Source: Rhodococcus rhodochrous
Lineage (GTDB): Bacteria > Actinomycetota > Actinomycetes > Mycobacteriales > Mycobacteriaceae
Direction of reading: 5' to 3'
Assembly: GCF_014854695.1 (NCBI RefSeq)
Contig: NZ_CP027557.1
Span: forward strand, 3,410,001 to 3,474,000
DNA: 64,000 nucleotides
This document shows, in pieces, positions 49,168-58,270 of the stretch (its first letter is position 1; each line of letters starts with the position of its first letter). The notes under the pieces were generated by a model. It had not been told where the DNA came from, ran no database searches, and worked only from the letters and a program-made list of their open reading frames with translations. The translations under genes were made by a program, and so were the position numbers.

Positions 49168-49521
49168 ATGATCTTCAAGGGCGTCCGGGACGGCAAACCG
49201 TATCCCGATCACGGACTGTCTCTGCGCGACTGGTCGAGGATTCCGCCCCGCCAGGTGCGCCTCGACGAGATCGTCACGACGACGAAGGTGCTCGAACTCG
49301 ACCGGCTGTTGTCGGAGGACTCGACCTTCTACGGCGATCTGTTCCCACACGCCGTCCAGTGGCAGGGCGTGCTGTACCTCGAGGACGGGCTCCACCGTGC
49401 CGTGCAGTCCGCGCTGCGGAACCGGCCGGTGCTGCACGTGCGTGTCTTCGAGTACGACGTGCTGATTCCCGGTGGCGTGCCCGACCCGGGCGCCGAGGTT
49501 CGGGGCCCGTCTCCCGCATAG
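49168..49521 (+). CDS. Small conserved actinobacterial protein of unknown function
   Basis: The 117-residue protein ([20 protein letters not shown] at the start, then [20 protein letters not shown]) matches in size and location the mycobacterial protein beside hrcA (Rv2375). The segment [19 protein letters not shown] is reminiscent of ParB-like folds, but no nuclease or binding motif is certain. ATG 49168 is preferred. It diverges from hrcA across 157 bp that hold both promoters. Confidence 0.7.
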
Positions 49522-52523: not shown

Positions 52524-52529
52524 CACAAT
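52524..52529 (+). promoter_or_regulatory. Candidate -10 element for a leaderless transcript
   Basis: CACAAT (52524-52529) lies 7 bp before ATG 52537, so transcription would start at or next to the A of the start codon. No Shine-Dalgarno precedes either possible start. A weak -35 lies near 52501-52506. An imperfect inverted repeat around 52475-52501 could bind a regulator. Confidence 0.5.
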
Positions 52530-52536
52530 GGTCCGC

Positions 52537-52647
52537 ATGACAGGACACGGAGTGCGACTCGTGGCGCGACGCCACGTCGACTTCAAGCGCGTCTGCGCAT
52601 CCTGTTGTCTGCCTTGCGCCGCTTGTCTCTGCGCCGACTGTCTCTAG
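52537..52647 (+). CDS. Cysteine-rich leader peptide (attenuator ORF) of the sulfur operon
   Basis: This 36-codon ORF has seven cysteine codons among its last 17 codons (the run C-A-S-C-C-L-P-C-A-A-C-L-C-A-D-C-L). Four are TGT, a codon that is uncommon in this GC-rich sequence, which would make translation sensitive to charged tRNA-Cys. An earlier in-frame ATG at 52528 adds three codons. The ORF is probably leaderless. It ends 111 bp before sirA, and its stop lies inside a hairpin. Polycysteine leaders upstream of the same operon are established cysteine-responsive attenuators in mycobacteria. It is the only such gene in the window and should be annotated. Confidence 0.85.
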   Translation: MTGHGVRLVARRHVDFKRVCASCCLPCAACLCADCL

Positions 52648-52751
52648 TCGGCACTCCCCGGCACATCCCAGATCCCGCCGGGTCGAAGCATGCGTGCACG
52701 AGGTCAGCCCCCTCCTGCGCTCGTCGATCCGGTTCCAGCGAATATCAGGAG
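52633..52751 (+). promoter_or_regulatory. Attenuator RNA: two hairpins and an anti-Shine-Dalgarno
   Basis: Hairpin 1 pairs GCCGACT (52633-52639) with 52646-52652 and includes the last Cys codon and the stop of the leader ORF. Hairpin 2 pairs CCCGGC (52657-52662) with 52677-52682. CTCCTG (52712-52717) is complementary to CAGGAG (52746-52751), the sirA ribosome binding site. Ribosome position on the leader could select which forms. Confidence 0.68.
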
Positions 52752-52758
52752 ACCCTGT

Positions 52759-54474
52759 ATGTCGTCGACCACCGACGTCACGCCCGCCGACGAGTCGGCC
52801 ACTCCCGCCCGCCGCGCGCGTCCCGCCAAGCGTCGCGCCGAGGGCCAGTGGGCCCTCGGTTACCGGGAGCCGCTCAACGCCAACGAGCAGACGAAGAAGG
52901 ACGACAACCCGCTCAACGTCCGCAAGCGCATCGAGAACATCTACGCGCAAACCGGTTTCGACGGAATCGACAAGAGCGATCTGCGTGGCCGCTTCCGCTG
53001 GTGGGGTCTGTACACCCAGCGCGAGCAGGGCTACGACGGCACCTACACCGGTGACGAGAACATCGACCTGCTCGAGGCGAAGTACTTCATGATGCGGGTG
53101 CGCTGCGACGCCGGCGCCCTGAATCTCGCGCAGCTGCGGACGATCGCCGGTATCTCCACCGAGTTCGGTCGCGACACCGCCGACCTGTCCGACCGCGAGA
53201 ACGTCCAGTACCACTGGATCGAGGTCGAGAACGTCCCCGAGATCTGGCGTCGCCTCGAATCGGTCGGCCTGAAGACCACCGAGGCGTGCGGCGACTGCCC
53301 CCGCGTCGTGCTCGGTTCGCCGCTCGCCGGTGAGTCCCTCGACGAGATCATCGACGGCACCCCGGCGATCGACGAGATCGTGCGCCGCTACATCGGCAAC
53401 CCCGAGTACTCGAACCTGCCGCGCAAATTCAAGACCGCGATCTCCGGCCAGCAGGACGTCGTGCACGAGATCAACGACGTCGCCTTCATCGGCGTCGAGC
53501 ACCCCGAGCACGGCCCCGGCTTCGACCTGTGGGTCGGCGGCGGCCTGTCCACGAACCCGATGCTCGCGCAGCGGGTCGGCGCGTGGGTGCCGCTCGAGGA
53601 GGTCGCCGATGTGTGGGAAGGCGTCGTCGCGATCTTCCGCGACTACGGCTACCGCCGGCTGCGGTCCAAGGCACGCCTGAAGTTCCTCATCAAGGACTGG
53701 GGCATCGAGAAGTTCCGCGAGGTGCTCGAGACCGAGTACCTGAAGCGTCCGCTGATCGACGGCCCGGCCCCGGCCGCACCGGAGCGTCCGATCGATCACG
53801 TCGGTGTCCAGAAGCTGCGCAACGGCCTCAACGCCGTGGGTGTCGCGCCGATCGCCGGTCGTGTCTCGGGCACGATCCTGTCGAAGGTCGCCGACGCCGC
53901 CGAACGTGCGGGTTCGGACCGGATCCGGTTCACGCCGTACCAGAAGCTGATCGTGCTCGACGTGGCCGACGACAAGGTCGAGCAGCTCGTCACCGAGCTC
54001 GAGGCGCTGGGTCTGCCGGCCTCGCCGTCGCCGTGGCGCAAGAACCTCATGGCGTGCACGGGAATCGAGTTCTGCAAGCTGTCCTTCGTCGAGACGCGCA
54101 AGCGTTCGCAGGCCCTCGTGCCCGAGCTCGAGGAGCGTCTCGCCGACATCAACGCGCAGCTCGACGTCCCGGTGACGATCAACATCAACGGCTGCCCGAA
54201 CTCGTGCGCGCGCTCCCAGATCGCCGACATCGGCTTCAAGGGGCAGCTCGTCGACGACGGTGAGGGCAACCAGGTCGAGGGTTTCCAGGTGCACCTCGGC
54301 GGTGCGCTGGGCTTCGACGCGAAGTTCGGACGCAAGCTGCGCCAGCACAAGGTCACCAGCGCCGAGCTCGGCGACTACATCGAGCGGGTGGTGCGCACCT
54401 TCGTCAAGGAGCGCACGCCCGGCGAGCGCTTCGGCGAATGGGTCGTCCGCGCCGAGGAGGCAGACCTGCGATGA
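52759..54474 (+). CDS. sirA: Ferredoxin-dependent sulfite reductase
   Basis: The 571-residue siroheme enzyme reduces sulfite to sulfide. The four cysteines that bind the 4Fe-4S cluster and siroheme are Cys433 and Cys439 (CTGIEFC) and Cys479 and Cys483 (NGCPNSC). Tyr85 and Cys177 match the mycobacterial residues that form a covalent crosslink next to the siroheme and distinguish sulfite from nitrite reductase. The 92-residue spacing is the same as in M. tuberculosis SirA. ATG 52759 follows CAGGAG, the site that may be masked by the attenuator. The N-terminus is about 16 residues longer than in M. tuberculosis. Confidence 0.94.
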   Translation: MSSTTDVTPADESATPARRARPAKRRAEGQWALGYREPLNANEQTKKDDNPLNVRKRIENIYAQTGFDGIDKSDLRGRFRWWGLYTQREQGYDGTYTGDENIDLLEAKYFMMRVRCDAGALNLAQLRTIAGISTEFGRDTADLSDRENVQYHWIEVENVPEIWRRLESVGLKTTEACGDCPRVVLGSPLAGESLDEIIDGTPAIDEIVRRYIGNPEYSNLPRKFKTAISGQQDVVHEINDVAFIGVEHPEHGPGFDLWVGGGLSTNPMLAQRVGAWVPLEEVADVWEGVVAIFRDYGYRRLRSKARLKFLIKDWGIEKFREVLETEYLKRPLIDGPAPAAPERPIDHVGVQKLRNGLNAVGVAPIAGRVSGTILSKVADAAERAGSDRIRFTPYQKLIVLDVADDKVEQLVTELEALGLPASPSPWRKNLMACTGIEFCKLSFVETRKRSQALVPELEERLADINAQLDVPVTININGCPNSCARSQIADIGFKGQLVDDGEGNQVEGFQVHLGGALGFDAKFGRKLRQHKVTSAELGDYIERVVRTFVKERTPGERFGEWVVRAEEADLR

Positions 54475-54527
54475 CGGGCACTGCTGCAGCGGTCGACACG
54501 AAGACGGATCGGGAAGGGACGCGATGA
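54471..54527 (+). CDS. 18-codon coupling ORF between sirA and cysH
   Basis: ATG 54471 overlaps the sirA stop (ATGA) and the ORF's own stop 54525-54527 overlaps the cysH start (ATGA again). The product would be 18 residues (MTGTAAAVDTKTDREGTR), hydrophilic with no recognisable feature. It carries the cysH Shine-Dalgarno (GGGAAGGGA) near its end. Its likely role is to keep ribosomes moving from sirA to cysH, rather than to make a functional peptide. It could also be a chance ORF, though both junctions are exact. Confidence 0.55.
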   Translation: MTGTAAAVDTKTDREGTR

Positions 54528-55252
54528 CGATCGATACGAACATCGACGAGCTCCGGAGTATTGCCGCGCAGGGGGCGGCAGAACTCGAGGGTGCGTCGGC
54601 GCAGGAACTCCTGCGGTGGACGGACGAGACCTTCGGTACCCCCACCACCGACGGTGGACGTAGCGGGTACATCGTCGCGTCCAACATGCAGGACGGTGTC
54701 CTGGTCCATCTGGCCGCGCAGCAGCGCCCCGGCGTGGACGTGCTGTTCCTCGACACCGGCTACCACTTCGCCGAGACGCTCGGCACGCGCGATGCGGTGG
54801 AGCAGGTGTACGGCGTGAACATCGTCGACGCCCGGGCGCAGCAGTCCGTCGCGGAGCAGGACGCCCTGCTCGGCAAGGATCTGTTCGCTCGCGACCCGAA
54901 CGAGTGCTGCCGTCTGCGCAAGGTGGTGCCGCTGAAGGAGAGCCTGAAGGGCTACCGCGCCTGGGTGACCGGCATCCGCCGTGTCGAGGCGCCCACCCGC
55001 GCGAACGCACCGCTGATCTCGTTCGACGACGCGTTCGGACTGGTGAAGATCAATCCGATCGCGGCATGGTCCGACGAGGACATGCAGAACTACATCGACG
55101 AACACGGGATCCTCGTCAATCCCCTCGTCGACGAGGGCTACCCGTCCATCGGGTGCGCCCCGTGCACCACCAAACCACTTCCCGGAGCCGATCCGCGCAG
55201 CGGGCGCTGGGCCGGCCGAGCCAAGACCGAATGCGGGTTGCACGCCTCATGA
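54524..55252 (+). CDS. cysH: Adenylyl-sulfate (APS) reductase
   Basis: The 242-residue protein has a PP-loop-like fold with LFLDTGYHFAET and the two cysteine pairs that bind a 4Fe-4S cluster: NECCRLRK and GCAPC. This marks an APS rather than a PAPS reductase. The catalytic cysteine lies in the C-terminal ECGLH. It reduces APS to sulfite with thioredoxin. ATG 54524 overlaps the small coupling ORF. It ends by overlapping cysD by 4 bp. Confidence 0.95.
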   Translation: MTIDTNIDELRSIAAQGAAELEGASAQELLRWTDETFGTPTTDGGRSGYIVASNMQDGVLVHLAAQQRPGVDVLFLDTGYHFAETLGTRDAVEQVYGVNIVDARAQQSVAEQDALLGKDLFARDPNECCRLRKVVPLKESLKGYRAWVTGIRRVEAPTRANAPLISFDDAFGLVKINPIAAWSDEDMQNYIDEHGILVNPLVDEGYPSIGCAPCTTKPLPGADPRSGRWAGRAKTECGLHAS

Positions 55253-56193
55253 CACTCACCGATACGAATCCCACCGAGACCCGGACGCTGCTGGACGGCA
55301 ACCGGTTCGACACCCTCGACGCCCTCGAGTCGGAAGCGATCCACGTCTTCCGCGAGGTCGCGGGCGAGTTCGAGCGCCCCGTCATCCTGTTCTCGGGAGG
55401 CAAGGACTCCACCGTCCTGCTGCACCTCGCGATCAAGGCGTTCTGGCCCGCGCCGCTGCCCTTCGCGCTGTTGCACGTCGACACCGGCCACAACCTCCCC
55501 GAGGTCCTCGAGTTCCGCGACCACGTCGTCGAGAAGTACAACCTGCGACTGCACGTCGCGAGCGTCGAGGACTACCTCGCCGACGGCCGGCTCACCGAGC
55601 GTCCCGACGGCATCCGCAACCCGCTGCAGACCGTGCCGCTGCTCGACGCGATCTCGGAGAACCGGTTCGACGCCGTCTTCGGCGGCGGCCGCCGCGACGA
55701 GGAGCGTTCGCGCGCCAAGGAGCGGATCTTCTCGCTGCGCAACGCATTCGGCCAGTGGGATCCGAAGCGTCAGCGTCCGGAGCTGTGGAATCTGTACAAC
55801 GGGAAGCACGCACCGGGTGAGCACGTGCGGGTCTTCCCGCTGAGCAACTTCACCGAGCTCGACATCTGGCGCTACATCGCCCGCGAGAACGTCGAACTGG
55901 CGAGCATCTACTACGCGCACGAGCGTCCCGTCTACCGCCGCGACGGCATGTGGATGACCCCGGGTGTCTGGGGTGGTCCGGCCGAAGGCGAAGAGCTTGA
56001 GACGCGTTCGGTGCGCTACCGCACCGTCGGCGACGGATCGACCACCGGCGCGATCCTGTCCGAGGCCTCCACGAACGAGGAAATCCTCGCCGAGGTCGCG
56101 GCATCACGACTGACCGAGCGCGGCGCCACCCGCGGCGACGACCGGGTTTCCGAAGCGGCGATGGAAGACCGCAAGCGAGAGGGCTATTTCTGA
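55249..56193 (+). CDS. cysD: Sulfate adenylyltransferase subunit 2
   Basis: The 314-residue protein is the ATP-pyrophosphatase-type catalytic subunit of ATP sulfurylase. It has the PP loop FSGGKDSTVLLHL (near residue 50), HVDTGHNLPEVLEFRD, and FGGGRRDEERSRAKER. It forms APS from sulfate and ATP together with the GTPase CysN. The start ATG 55249 overlaps the cysH stop. The C-terminal end DRKREGYF is typical of CysD. Confidence 0.96.
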   Translation: MTLTDTNPTETRTLLDGNRFDTLDALESEAIHVFREVAGEFERPVILFSGGKDSTVLLHLAIKAFWPAPLPFALLHVDTGHNLPEVLEFRDHVVEKYNLRLHVASVEDYLADGRLTERPDGIRNPLQTVPLLDAISENRFDAVFGGGRRDEERSRAKERIFSLRNAFGQWDPKRQRPELWNLYNGKHAPGEHVRVFPLSNFTELDIWRYIARENVELASIYYAHERPVYRRDGMWMTPGVWGGPAEGEELETRSVRYRTVGDGSTTGAILSEASTNEEILAEVAASRLTERGATRGDDRVSEAAMEDRKREGYF

Positions 56194-56195
56194 TC

Positions 56196-57530
56196 ATGAG
56201 CGACCTTCACGAGCGGAGCGTGCAGAGCGACACGCAGCTGCTGCGCCTCGCCACCGCCGGTTCGGTCGACGACGGCAAGTCCACCCTGGTGGGCCGGCTG
56301 CTCTACGACACCAAGTCCGTGCTCGCCGACCAGATCGACGCCGTCACCCGCGCGTCGGTCGACCGCGGCCTCGACACCCCCGACCTGTCGCTGCTCGTCG
56401 ACGGCCTGCGCGCCGAGCGTGAGCAGGGCATCACCATCGACGTGGCCTACCGCTACTTCGCGACGCCGAAGCGCAGCTTCGTCCTGGCCGACACGCCGGG
56501 TCACGTCCAGTACACCCGCAACACGGTGTCGGGTGCGTCCACCGCACAGCTCGTCGTCCTGCTGGTCGACGCGCGCAAGGGTGTCGTCTCGCAGACCCGT
56601 AAGCACGCCGCCGTGCTGGCCCTGCTCGGTGTGCCGAAGCTCGTCCTCGCGGTCAACAAGATCGACCTCGTCGAGGATCCGGCCTCGGTGTTCGCGCAGA
56701 TCTCCGCCGAGTTCGGCGAACTGACGAGCTCGCTCGGCTGGGCCCCCGAGGACGTGCAGGAGATCCCGGTCTCCGCGCTGCACGGCGACAACGTGGCGGT
56801 GCGCAGCGAGAACACCCCCTACTACGACGGCCCGACCCTCATCGAGTACCTCGAGTCGGTCCCCGTCGACGCCGACGTGCACGGCCGGCACGAGACCGGT
56901 CTGCGCTTCCCGGTGCAGTACGTGATCCGTCCCCGCACCGCCGAGTTCCCCGACTACCGCGGCTACGCCGGTCAGGTCGCGGCAGGCTCCGTGCGCCCCG
57001 GCGACGAGGTCGTCGTGCTGCCGTCCGGTGTCCGCACCACCGTCGAGCGCATCGACAGTGCCGACGGCGCATTCGATGTCGCGCACGCCGGCCGGTCGGT
57101 GACCCTGGTGCTCGCCGACGACGTCGACGTCTCCCGCGGCGACATCATCGCCACCCCGGAGGCGGCACCCGAGCCGCTGTCGGAGTTCGAGGCCACCGTG
57201 TGCTGGCTCGCCGAGAAGCCGCTGCGTCCCGGCGCCCGGCTGCTGCTCAAGCACGGCACCCGCACCACGCAGGCCATCGTCGGCACGATCGACGAGCGGT
57301 TCGACGAGCAGAACCTCTCCTCCGTCCCGAGCCCGGACAGCATCGAGCTCAACGAGATCGCGCGCATCACGGTGCGTGTGGCCGAGCCGATCGCCGCGGA
57401 CGACTACCGCGTCAACCGCCGTAGCGGCAGCTTCCTGCTCATCGATCCGGCCGGGGGCAACACCCTGGCTGCGGGTCTCGTGGGCGACGGACTCGCCGAC
57501 ATCGAGCTCGGGGACCGCGTCCCGGCATGA
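56196..57530 (+). CDS. cysN: Sulfate adenylyltransferase subunit 1 (GTPase)
   Basis: The 444-residue protein has elongation-factor-like GTPase motifs (GSVDDGKSTLVGRLL, DTPGHVQY, NKIDLV). It uses GTP hydrolysis to drive APS formation with CysD. Unlike the mycobacterial CysNC fusion, it has no APS-kinase (CysC) domain at the C-terminus, which ends IELGDRVPA. PAPS synthesis would therefore need a separate gene outside this window. ATG 56196 lies 2 bp after cysD. The stop overlaps the next gene by 4 bp. Confidence 0.95.
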   Translation: MSDLHERSVQSDTQLLRLATAGSVDDGKSTLVGRLLYDTKSVLADQIDAVTRASVDRGLDTPDLSLLVDGLRAEREQGITIDVAYRYFATPKRSFVLADTPGHVQYTRNTVSGASTAQLVVLLVDARKGVVSQTRKHAAVLALLGVPKLVLAVNKIDLVEDPASVFAQISAEFGELTSSLGWAPEDVQEIPVSALHGDNVAVRSENTPYYDGPTLIEYLESVPVDADVHGRHETGLRFPVQYVIRPRTAEFPDYRGYAGQVAAGSVRPGDEVVVLPSGVRTTVERIDSADGAFDVAHAGRSVTLVLADDVDVSRGDIIATPEAAPEPLSEFEATVCWLAEKPLRPGARLLLKHGTRTTQAIVGTIDERFDEQNLSSVPSPDSIELNEIARITVRVAEPIAADDYRVNRRSGSFLLIDPAGGNTLAAGLVGDGLADIELGDRVPA

Positions 57531-58270
57531 TGCCGCTCGTCGCCGTCGCGCACGGCAGCCGCGACCCGCGTTCGGCGCGGGCCGTGGCTGCCGCGCTCGA
57601 CACCGTCCGGGCCGAGAACCCCGGTCTGGACGTGCGACTCGCGTTCCTGGACCTGAACACCCCCTCGGTCGGGCAGGTCCTCGACGCGCTCGCCGCGGAC
57701 GGGCATCGGCAGGTCGCGGTGGTGCCACTGCTGCTCGGCAGCGCCTTCCACGCGCGGGTCGATCTGCCGGCCCTGTTGCACGAGGCGCAGCAACGTCATC
57801 CGTTGCTCGAGGTGCTGTGCTCGCCGATCCTCGGCGACGATGATCTCCTCGTCGACGCGGCTCGCGACCTGATCACGGCCACGGGGGTGTCGGTCGATGA
57901 TCCGTCCGTCGGTGTCGCGGTGTGCGCGGTGGGATCGCGGCGCCCCGAAGCGAACCGGGCGACAGAACTCGTCGTGCCCCGCATCCTCGCCGGGACGGCG
58001 TGGACGCAGGCCGCGGCGTGCTTCGCCACCACCGGCCCGTCGGTCGGAACGACCCTCGCCGATCTCACCTCCCGCGGCGCACGCACCGTCGTGCTGACGC
58101 CGTGGATCCTCGCCCCCGGACTGCTGTGGGACCGCGCCTGCGCCGAGGCCGAGAGTCTCGGGCACGTGCGGGTCGCGGAGACCCTCACCCGGCACGATGC
58201 CGTCGCGCGGGTGATCACCCAGCGCTACACCGAGGCCGTGCACCGCCGGCGCGGACTGCGCGTCGCCTGA
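57527..58270 (+). CDS. Sirohydrochlorin chelatase-type protein (CbiX/SirB)
   Basis: The 247-residue protein has two CbiX-like halves, each starting like AVAHGSRDPRSA (metal-binding His in the first) and containing VVPLLLGSAFHAR. The family inserts iron or cobalt into sirohydrochlorin. In this operon an iron chelatase that supplies siroheme to SirA is the most likely role. The same kind of gene follows cysH in mycobacteria. It starts ATG 57527, overlapping the cysN stop. The second-half histidine is not evident, which is usual for the long form. Confidence 0.88.
   Translation: MMPLVAVAHGSRDPRSARAVAAALDTVRAENPGLDVRLAFLDLNTPSVGQVLDALAADGHRQVAVVPLLLGSAFHARVDLPALLHEAQQRHPLLEVLCSPILGDDDLLVDAARDLITATGVSVDDPSVGVAVCAVGSRRPEANRATELVVPRILAGTAWTQAAACFATTGPSVGTTLADLTSRGARTVVLTPWILAPGLLWDRACAEAESLGHVRVAETLTRHDAVARVITQRYTEAVHRRRGLRVA

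Follow-up and report, generated by a model that had tools for sequence, protein, structure and literature searches.

A probable leaderless cysteine leader peptide upstream of sirA in Rhodococcus rhodochrous, and a UGU codon at a set distance behind its conserved core

The sirA locus and its leader ORF

The window, i.e. the whole stretch of 64,000 nucleotides that was analysed, contains a sulfite reductase operon preceded by a short cysteine-rich ORF. The genes and main features of the locus are the following:

52537..52647, forward strand: leader ORF, 36 codons with the TAG stop included; matched by NF042936 with 44.4 bits (cut-off 45)
52747..52751, forward strand: Shine-Dalgarno sequence AGGAG of sirA, 12 nt before the ATG
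52759..54474, forward strand: sirA/nirA-type sulfite reductase (Pfam NIR_SIR and NIR_SIR_ferr)
54446..55252 (start approximate), forward strand: cysH, APS/PAPS reductase; three models above their cut-offs
55246..56193 (start approximate), forward strand: cysD; TIGR02039 above cut-off
56196..57530, forward strand: cysN; TIGR02034 above cut-off
57527..58270, forward strand: CbiX-type chelatase; PF01903 above cut-off, NCBIfam matches under cut-off

The name sirA is taken from the mycobacterial gene, and no NCBIfam model scores above its cut-off for the SirA protein. Its closest counterpart among the best 80 of 556 relatives, a set in which the records of the genome itself or of a very near one are possibly not included, is that of Rhodococcus gordoniae DSM 44689 (97% identical). 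The CbiX-type chelatase would serve the sirohaem of SirA, and the divergent neighbour on the other strand is a HemN-like radical-SAM gene. At gathering thresholds, Rfam detects only two tRNAs in the window.

The leader ORF runs from the ATG at 52537 to the TAG at 52645-52647 and its translation is MTGHGVRLVARRHVDFKRVCASCCLPCAACLCADCL. Cysteine occupies 7 of the last 17 codons (three TGC and four TGT), and 111 nt separate the stop codon from the ATG of sirA (52759). The coordinates, the cysteine count, the four TGT codons and the distance to sirA that the original prediction had given were all confirmed on the sequence, and so was its remark that TGT is rare in the surrounding DNA: the seven neighbouring genes contain 27 TGC and no TGT, and the 22 coding-like frames of the window contain 81 TGC and 16 TGT.

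Such a composition is by itself no proof of a leader, because three frames of the window carry 6 or more Cys among the 20 codons that precede the stop, against a mean of 0.033 per shuffled window (60 dinucleotide shuffles, both strands, start codon not required); the two other frames lie near 49171-49500 on the forward strand and on the reverse strand (start 1934 of the reverse complement). The proof comes from conservation, since a match is present in 18/18 genomes of the genus. The existence of these two frames could be taken to mean that the leader ORF is itself a Cys-rich frame generated by chance. We regard this explanation as negligible, the place, frame, start and core of the ORF being kept across the genus and a leader preceding sirA in 79 of the 80 loci picked by the SirA protein alone (the best 80 of 556 relatives). 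The sole locus of these 80 devoid of a leader, L276, has just 43 nt before the SirA match.

Family, start and promoter of the leader

With the NCBIfam model NF042936 (Ms4527A family Cys-rich leader peptide), the leader scores 44.1-44.4 bits (E = 8.5e-12), under the curated cut-off of 45. The same model matches all 18 genomes of the genus with 33.1-44 bits, none of them above the cut-off, and 165 of the 201 genomes of the family at E <= 0.001, 48 of which are above it. The ORF lies just upstream of sirA/nirA and possesses the conserved core and the Cys-rich end, so that by place and sequence it is the counterpart of Ms4527A, as distinct from a formal hit of the model. It shares with this family the downstream gene, the core RRH[VI]D[LFY]KRVC (as found in the members above cut-off) and the Cys-rich end, and it differs by a Cys tail (CASCCLPCAACLCADCL) longer than that of the high-scoring members (e.g. 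CSCCCLP) and by its score. The NF042936 match, the gene order and the conservation thus support the presence of a leader of the cysteine-responsive kind upstream of sirA-cysH-cysD-cysN, as had been predicted. The accompanying idea that this would be the first extension of the mechanism to the Rhodococcus lineage is not supported: judged by its sequence, the leader belongs to an already known kind, for which NCBIfam has a model matching the whole genus, albeit below cut-off.

Across the genus (18 leaders), residues 4 and 16 are the only ones of the first 22 that vary, and the Cys tail, with a total Cys count ranging from 4 to 7, is the variable part. The expectation that the Cys codons, rather than the residues surrounding them, would be conserved is therefore mostly reversed in this alignment.

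A second in-frame ATG is located at 52528, nine bases upstream of the first. Within the genus it is lost from 3/18 genomes (L056, L060 and L065), which makes the ATG at 52537 the most likely start. Upstream of it lies the following element:

52524..52529, forward strand: -10-like hexamer CACAAT, 7 nt before the start codon of the predicted leaderless transcript

A hexamer of the form xAxxxT occurs at exactly this spacing in 73 of the 77 SirA-anchored relatives with a recognisable start, the choice of the start in this set being guided in part by the hexamer itself. At shifts of -4 to +4 bases, the counts are 0, 0, 0, 0, 73, 4, 2, 19 and 0 of 77, i.e. none one base upstream, 4 one base downstream and 19 three bases downstream. 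This spacing fits leaderless transcripts, and the sirA leader transcript is most likely leaderless on these sequence grounds. The distance from the start to the conserved Asp is 14 codons in 67/67 distinct sirA leaders. A scan for sigma-70 consensus promoters gave no match.

A more general NCBIfam model, NF042934 (cis_reg_atten putative leader peptide), gives the sirA leader 15.6-15.8 bits, under its curated cut-off of 27. In the class, it matches 144 of 197 genomes at E <= 0.001, with some match above cut-off in 128/197 and up to 14 matches in one genome. In the genome studied here it reveals five further short leader frames, three above the cut-off, one reaching 27.3 only with its neighbours, and L015 below it (20.8):

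C1:854184, reverse strand: L011, leader before DUF4395 and rhodanese genes
C1:4731917, forward strand: L012, leader before an SCO4226-like protein and, by eye, an acyl-CoA dehydrogenase-like protein
C1:533414, reverse strand: L013, leader before a winged-helix regulator
C1:531951, forward strand: L014, leader before a luciferase-like protein scoring below cut-offs
C1:4291257, forward strand: L015, leader before a Pyr_redox_2 protein

The Pyr_redox_2 protein is, in our view, a reductase of the FprA type, which could donate electrons to SirA. The hexamers TAAACT, TACGGT, TACACT, TAGGGT and TAGGAA are found before the five starts that we chose, at the same distance as in the sirA leader. Leaders built in this way are also found elsewhere, upstream of rhodanese, DUF4395, PAPS-reductase and SirA genes.

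The cysteine register, the UGU codon and the peptide core

The six leaders of the genome share the pattern R-x-[HA]-V-D-[LF]-x-R, and in an alignment made by eye the only Cys position common to 6/6 is the ninth residue after the Asp (hereafter D+9, counted from the Asp of R-x-[HA]-V-D-x-x-R); in the five further leaders, its codon is TGT in 5/5. The corresponding elements of the sirA leader are:

52567..52590, forward strand: core peptide R-R-H-V-D-F-K-R (R11-R18)
52606..52608, forward strand: proposed sensor codon, UGU of C24, the ninth residue after D15 (TGT 118/118 at this register)
52561..52575, forward strand: possible intra-ORF hairpin GUGGCG-CGA-CGCCAC, spanning codons V9 to H13, present in the MFE structure of one folding and in the centroid structure of a second, and absent from the MFE structure of the second

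The register was examined by means of a DNA pattern encoding only R-x-H-V-D-[LF]-x-R, devoid of any Cys. It was run against 118 genomes of the class, and among the matches listed 112 distinct hits (110 loci) were read, G251:C426 and those after G209:C673 being left out. In 46 of these 112 hits a stop follows within 30 codons, and 38 of the 46 short frames (38 of the 44 that reach D+9) carry a Cys at D+9, no other single offset having a Cys in more than 6 of them. In the longer frames, D+9 is a Cys in 1/66. Six of the eight short frames devoid of the D+9 Cys are not leader-like by eye, and two have a Cys at D+10. L200 and L202 are leader-like frames with Cys at D+10 (RLHVDLMRIGGTGRC), one residue beyond the rule. 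A first motif, written with a wrong spacing, had recovered only 3 leaders; it was replaced by R..VD, with which 85 were found and 5 loci missed.

The codon used at D+9 was then counted in 118 non-identical actinobacterial leaders with a Cys at this position, and it is TGT in 118/118, a raw count that is not corrected for the relatedness of the leaders. At the other Cys positions of the same leaders TGT is found in 127/276, and in the coding-like flanking frames in 94 of 766 Cys codons, these frames being coding-like by base composition, as opposed to annotated genes, with possible repeats among related loci. The set comprises 16 leaders of the genus, the 5 others of this genome, 29 of the family and 30 + 38 of the class, the 68 class leaders spanning 16 families by hand count. 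L016 (a chance match) and L018 (the same place as L001) were removed, and identical 70-nt stretches were counted once. The motif-found leaders were restricted to those with a D+9 Cys before the count, the codon itself not being selected; the profile-found sets stem from models that contain the D+9 Cys. Because the comparison is made within the same leaders, ancestry or genome codon bias is less likely to be the whole reason for TGT at D+9. The choice of TGT, which had been pointed out as a property of the leader, thus stands as a fixed feature of one position (D+9); at most other Cys positions the codons are mixed, and a preference throughout the tail is not borne out.

The SirA-anchored leaders show a D+9 TGT in 60 of 66 distinct sequences (66, 67 or 70 are distinct depending on the window used to drop identical rows, and in the set of 70 the D+9 TGT is found in 64). 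The remaining 6/66, which represent 8 loci from Rhodococcoides species, two further Rhodococcus, R. maanshanensis and R. oryzae, have no Cys at D+9; in 8/8 of these loci a TGT followed by CTG stands at D+7. The Cys register can therefore shift by two residues. The UGU codon has no constant RNA pairing partner. In the 118-leader set, the base after UGU is C in 99/118 leaders and the base before it is A in 0/118.

The conservation around the register points mainly to a constraint on the peptide, as judged from residues and codons. Four positions that the search left free (Leu at D-7, Val at D-6, Val at D+4 and Ala at D+7) each hold an identical residue in 32-36 of the 38 motif-found leaders, with third-base entropies of 1.2-1.7 bits. 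Ser at D+6 is an exception, written AGC in 29/38 motif-found leaders; lying three codons ahead of the UGU, it would be a second site possibly constrained at the codon level. In the SirA-anchored set, Val at D-6 is GTG in 70/70 and Arg at D-3 is CGC in 67/70 (the Fisher p-values for this codon fixity ignore relatedness). These fixed codons fit the GUGGCG/CGCCAC hairpin and count against a pure peptide reading; a portion of the N-terminal codons may be constrained at the RNA level. Since other codons such as this GTG are fixed too, a fixed codon alone is no proof of a sensor. Taken together, the fixity of TGT and the spacing recovered by the Cys-free search favour one UGU sensor that would be read with the conserved nascent peptide in the tunnel, and suggest that cysteine would be sensed by one particular Cys codon, placed at a fixed spacing from the conserved peptide that precedes it, as opposed to the number of Cys. 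As expected for an arrest peptide, nascent residues are conserved at a set distance from this codon (38/46) and are kept with varied third bases, the exceptions being the D+7 and D+10 registers.

Downstream RNA, proposed mechanism and alternatives

Four elements lie at or after the end of the leader, and their pairing was tested across the 18 genomes of the genus:

52633..52652, forward strand: hairpin GCCGACU/AGUCGGC spanning the stop codon of the leader; in the genus, 97.3% of its cells are paired and 0/7 pairs changed on both sides
52657..52662, forward strand: segment 1 (CCCGGC), can pair with segment 2; 97.2% of cells paired, 1/6 pairs changed on both sides
52677..52686, forward strand: segment 2 (GCCGGGUCGA), can pair with segment 1 or segment 3
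52724..52732, forward strand: segment 3 (UCGAUCCGG), can pair with segment 2; 95.7% of cells paired

The paired share and covariation score of the segment 1:2 pairing together with the stop-codon hairpin are reached by 2/500 shuffles, with 1/13 pairs changed on both sides, and the covariation score of the segment 2:3 pairing by 169/500. Both pairings are thus preserved in the genus, with a scarcity of double-sided changes that counts against the model given below. As predicted from these sequences, segment 2 can make an exclusive choice of partner, by analogy with attenuators. Most of the 5' arm of the stop-codon hairpin is absent in the short leaders L063, L066 and L067. No intrinsic terminator was found between 52380 and 52900, where a classical trp-type attenuator would have one. 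When a ribosome was placed at each Cys codon in a fold model of the 18 leaders, the access to the sirA Shine-Dalgarno sequence did not change consistently: a clear rise over the ribosome-free state was seen in L055 and L060, and a fall of the opening cost in L064. The fold model thus gave no consistent sign of RBS masking by the leader, and a CUCCUG/CAGGAG pairing over the Shine-Dalgarno sequence was rejected; perfect in the window, it has its last pair broken in 6/18 relatives and another pair broken or gapped in 9.

The model that we propose builds on the ORF, its conservation, the -10 spacing, the gene order, the usual register and the UGU codon, all of which are read directly in the DNA. 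Transcription would start at the A of the ATG at 52537, and the ribosome would translate R-R-H-V-D-F-K-R before reaching the UGU at codon 24, a codon read through wobble by the Cys-tRNA with anticodon GCA. When this Cys-tRNA is scarce, or slow to react while the exit tunnel holds the conserved peptide, the ribosome would pause at codon 24. If UGU 24 occupies the A site, Asp15 would be nine residues away from the active site and the Arg pair about 12-13 residues away, which is roughly where the known arrest peptides contact the narrow part of the tunnel. The pause site would precede the stop-codon hairpin and segments 1-3, leaving them free to fold, and a ribosome running on to the stop would cover the stop-codon hairpin. 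In the paused state, the untranslated 111 nt would fold or be bound differently, resulting in more sirA expression. That the ribosome pauses, that the peptide takes part, in which direction sirA responds and through which output step, be it RBS access or Rho-dependent termination, are inferences.

On the basis of the features of the locus and its relatives, we estimate at about 0.77 the probability that a leaderless, cysteine-responsive leader peptide sets the expression of sirA-cysH-cysD-cysN. A wider proposal, which we put forward tentatively and whose chances fall slightly short of even, is that an Actinomycetes-wide group of leaders senses cysteine by one UGU nine residues after the Asp of R-x-[HA]-V-D-x-x-R. 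These leaders would act as a nascent-chain-assisted wobble-codon sensor, a cysteine arrest peptide as distinct from a codon counter, and the extra Cys codons would only tune the response.

A plain codon-count attenuator, in which only the number of Cys codons would matter and the rest of the peptide would be neutral or kept for RNA structure, agrees with the 7 Cys of the sirA leader, with the RNA constraint apparent on part of the 5' codons (GTG at D-6) and with the polycysteine ORFs of M. smegmatis, for which a response to cysteine was reported (Canestrari 2020, cited by PMC9031893 and PMC9094748). It is nevertheless unlikely in view of the 26 of 38 motif-found leaders that have one Cys from the motif to the stop, of the 1-3-Cys leaders preceding SirA-like genes of other families (SirA being confirmed by profile for L095 and L128 only, and by eye for the rest), of the genus residues before the Cys tail, which are more conserved than the tail, and of the four residues kept at D-7, D-6, D+4 and D+7 with varied third bases. 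The conserved His, Asp and Cys residues could also evoke a small protein acting in trans, e.g. by binding a metal or an Fe-S cluster. The RRAVDLCR leaders have an Ala in place of the His, a single genus shows Cys counts of 4 to 7, and at D+9 the codon is fixed and not just the residue, all of which makes a function in trans very improbable.

For the output step, the alternative to the masking of the sirA RBS is Rho-dependent termination, the position of the leader ribosome deciding the access of Rho to the C-rich gap. The lack of an intrinsic terminator around the leader and of a consistent change of RBS access in the fold model speaks for Rho, which was suggested for mycobacterial cys leaders in PMC1262725, where the prediction is itself called weak. 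The termination step is consequently a serious contender, although we would bet somewhat against it: Canestrari 2020 reportedly concluded in favour of RBS sequestration in M. smegmatis, paused ribosomes freeing the masked RBS.

In TnaC and other arrest peptides, conserved residues lie roughly 9-13 residues from the active site and one amino acid is sensed; the sirA leader, as judged from its sequence, has a similar residue spacing, and it would respond to Cys-tRNA or to the reactivity of this tRNA. Small ORFs that are conserved, rich in Cys and carried by leaderless mRNAs were described in 2015 before genes including nirA/Msmeg_4527, with a suggestion of attenuation (PMC4633059, Fig. 7C), and the cysteine-dependent control by such ORFs in M. 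smegmatis is attributed to Canestrari 2020 in the passages of PMC9031893 and PMC9094748 that cite it. With these polycysteine leaderless attenuators the sirA leader has in common a short, leaderless-looking ORF, Cys codons near its end and a sulfur operon downstream, the Rhodococcus case being a prediction from sequence. Cys leaders lacking terminators were predicted in 2005 before cys operons of Mycobacterium and Propionibacterium and cbs of Bifidobacterium (PMC1262725); they resemble the sirA leader as short ORFs with Cys codons near the stop and differ in being described, in the available part of that paper, as runs of Cys codons with no conserved core or codon named. The uORFC-8-2 found before cysS in Rhodobacterales (PMC8632094) is another uORF with conserved Cys codons for which ribosome-mediated attenuation is proposed, and it differs by two tandem Cys codons, a dominance of UGC and an intrinsic terminator. 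Nothing about a fixed UGU or about the core of the peptide turned up in the passages retrieved from open-licence PMC articles.

The cis_reg_atten leaders share with the sirA leader the R-x-[HA]-V-D-[LF]-x-R core and the D+9 Cys written UGU, and they range from one Cys after the motif start to eight (L070), the sirA leader itself staying well under the NF042934 cut-off. The comparison turns loosely described Cys-rich leaders into a testable rule, which also covers the single-Cys leaders of many actinobacterial genomes, and, judging from the sirA leader, Rhodococcus would have its sulfite reduction wired as in mycobacteria. If the peptide is needed, it would be part of a single-amino-acid sensor that relies on the exit tunnel in addition to tRNA supply.

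Among the further leaders of the genome, L013 and L014 point towards each other across a distance of about 1.4 kb. The gene after L014 (L014:1636-2265) has its best stretch at positions 350-411 of the 422 of the NtaA/DmoA monooxygenase model, below cut-off, as if it were a shortened flavin monooxygenase.
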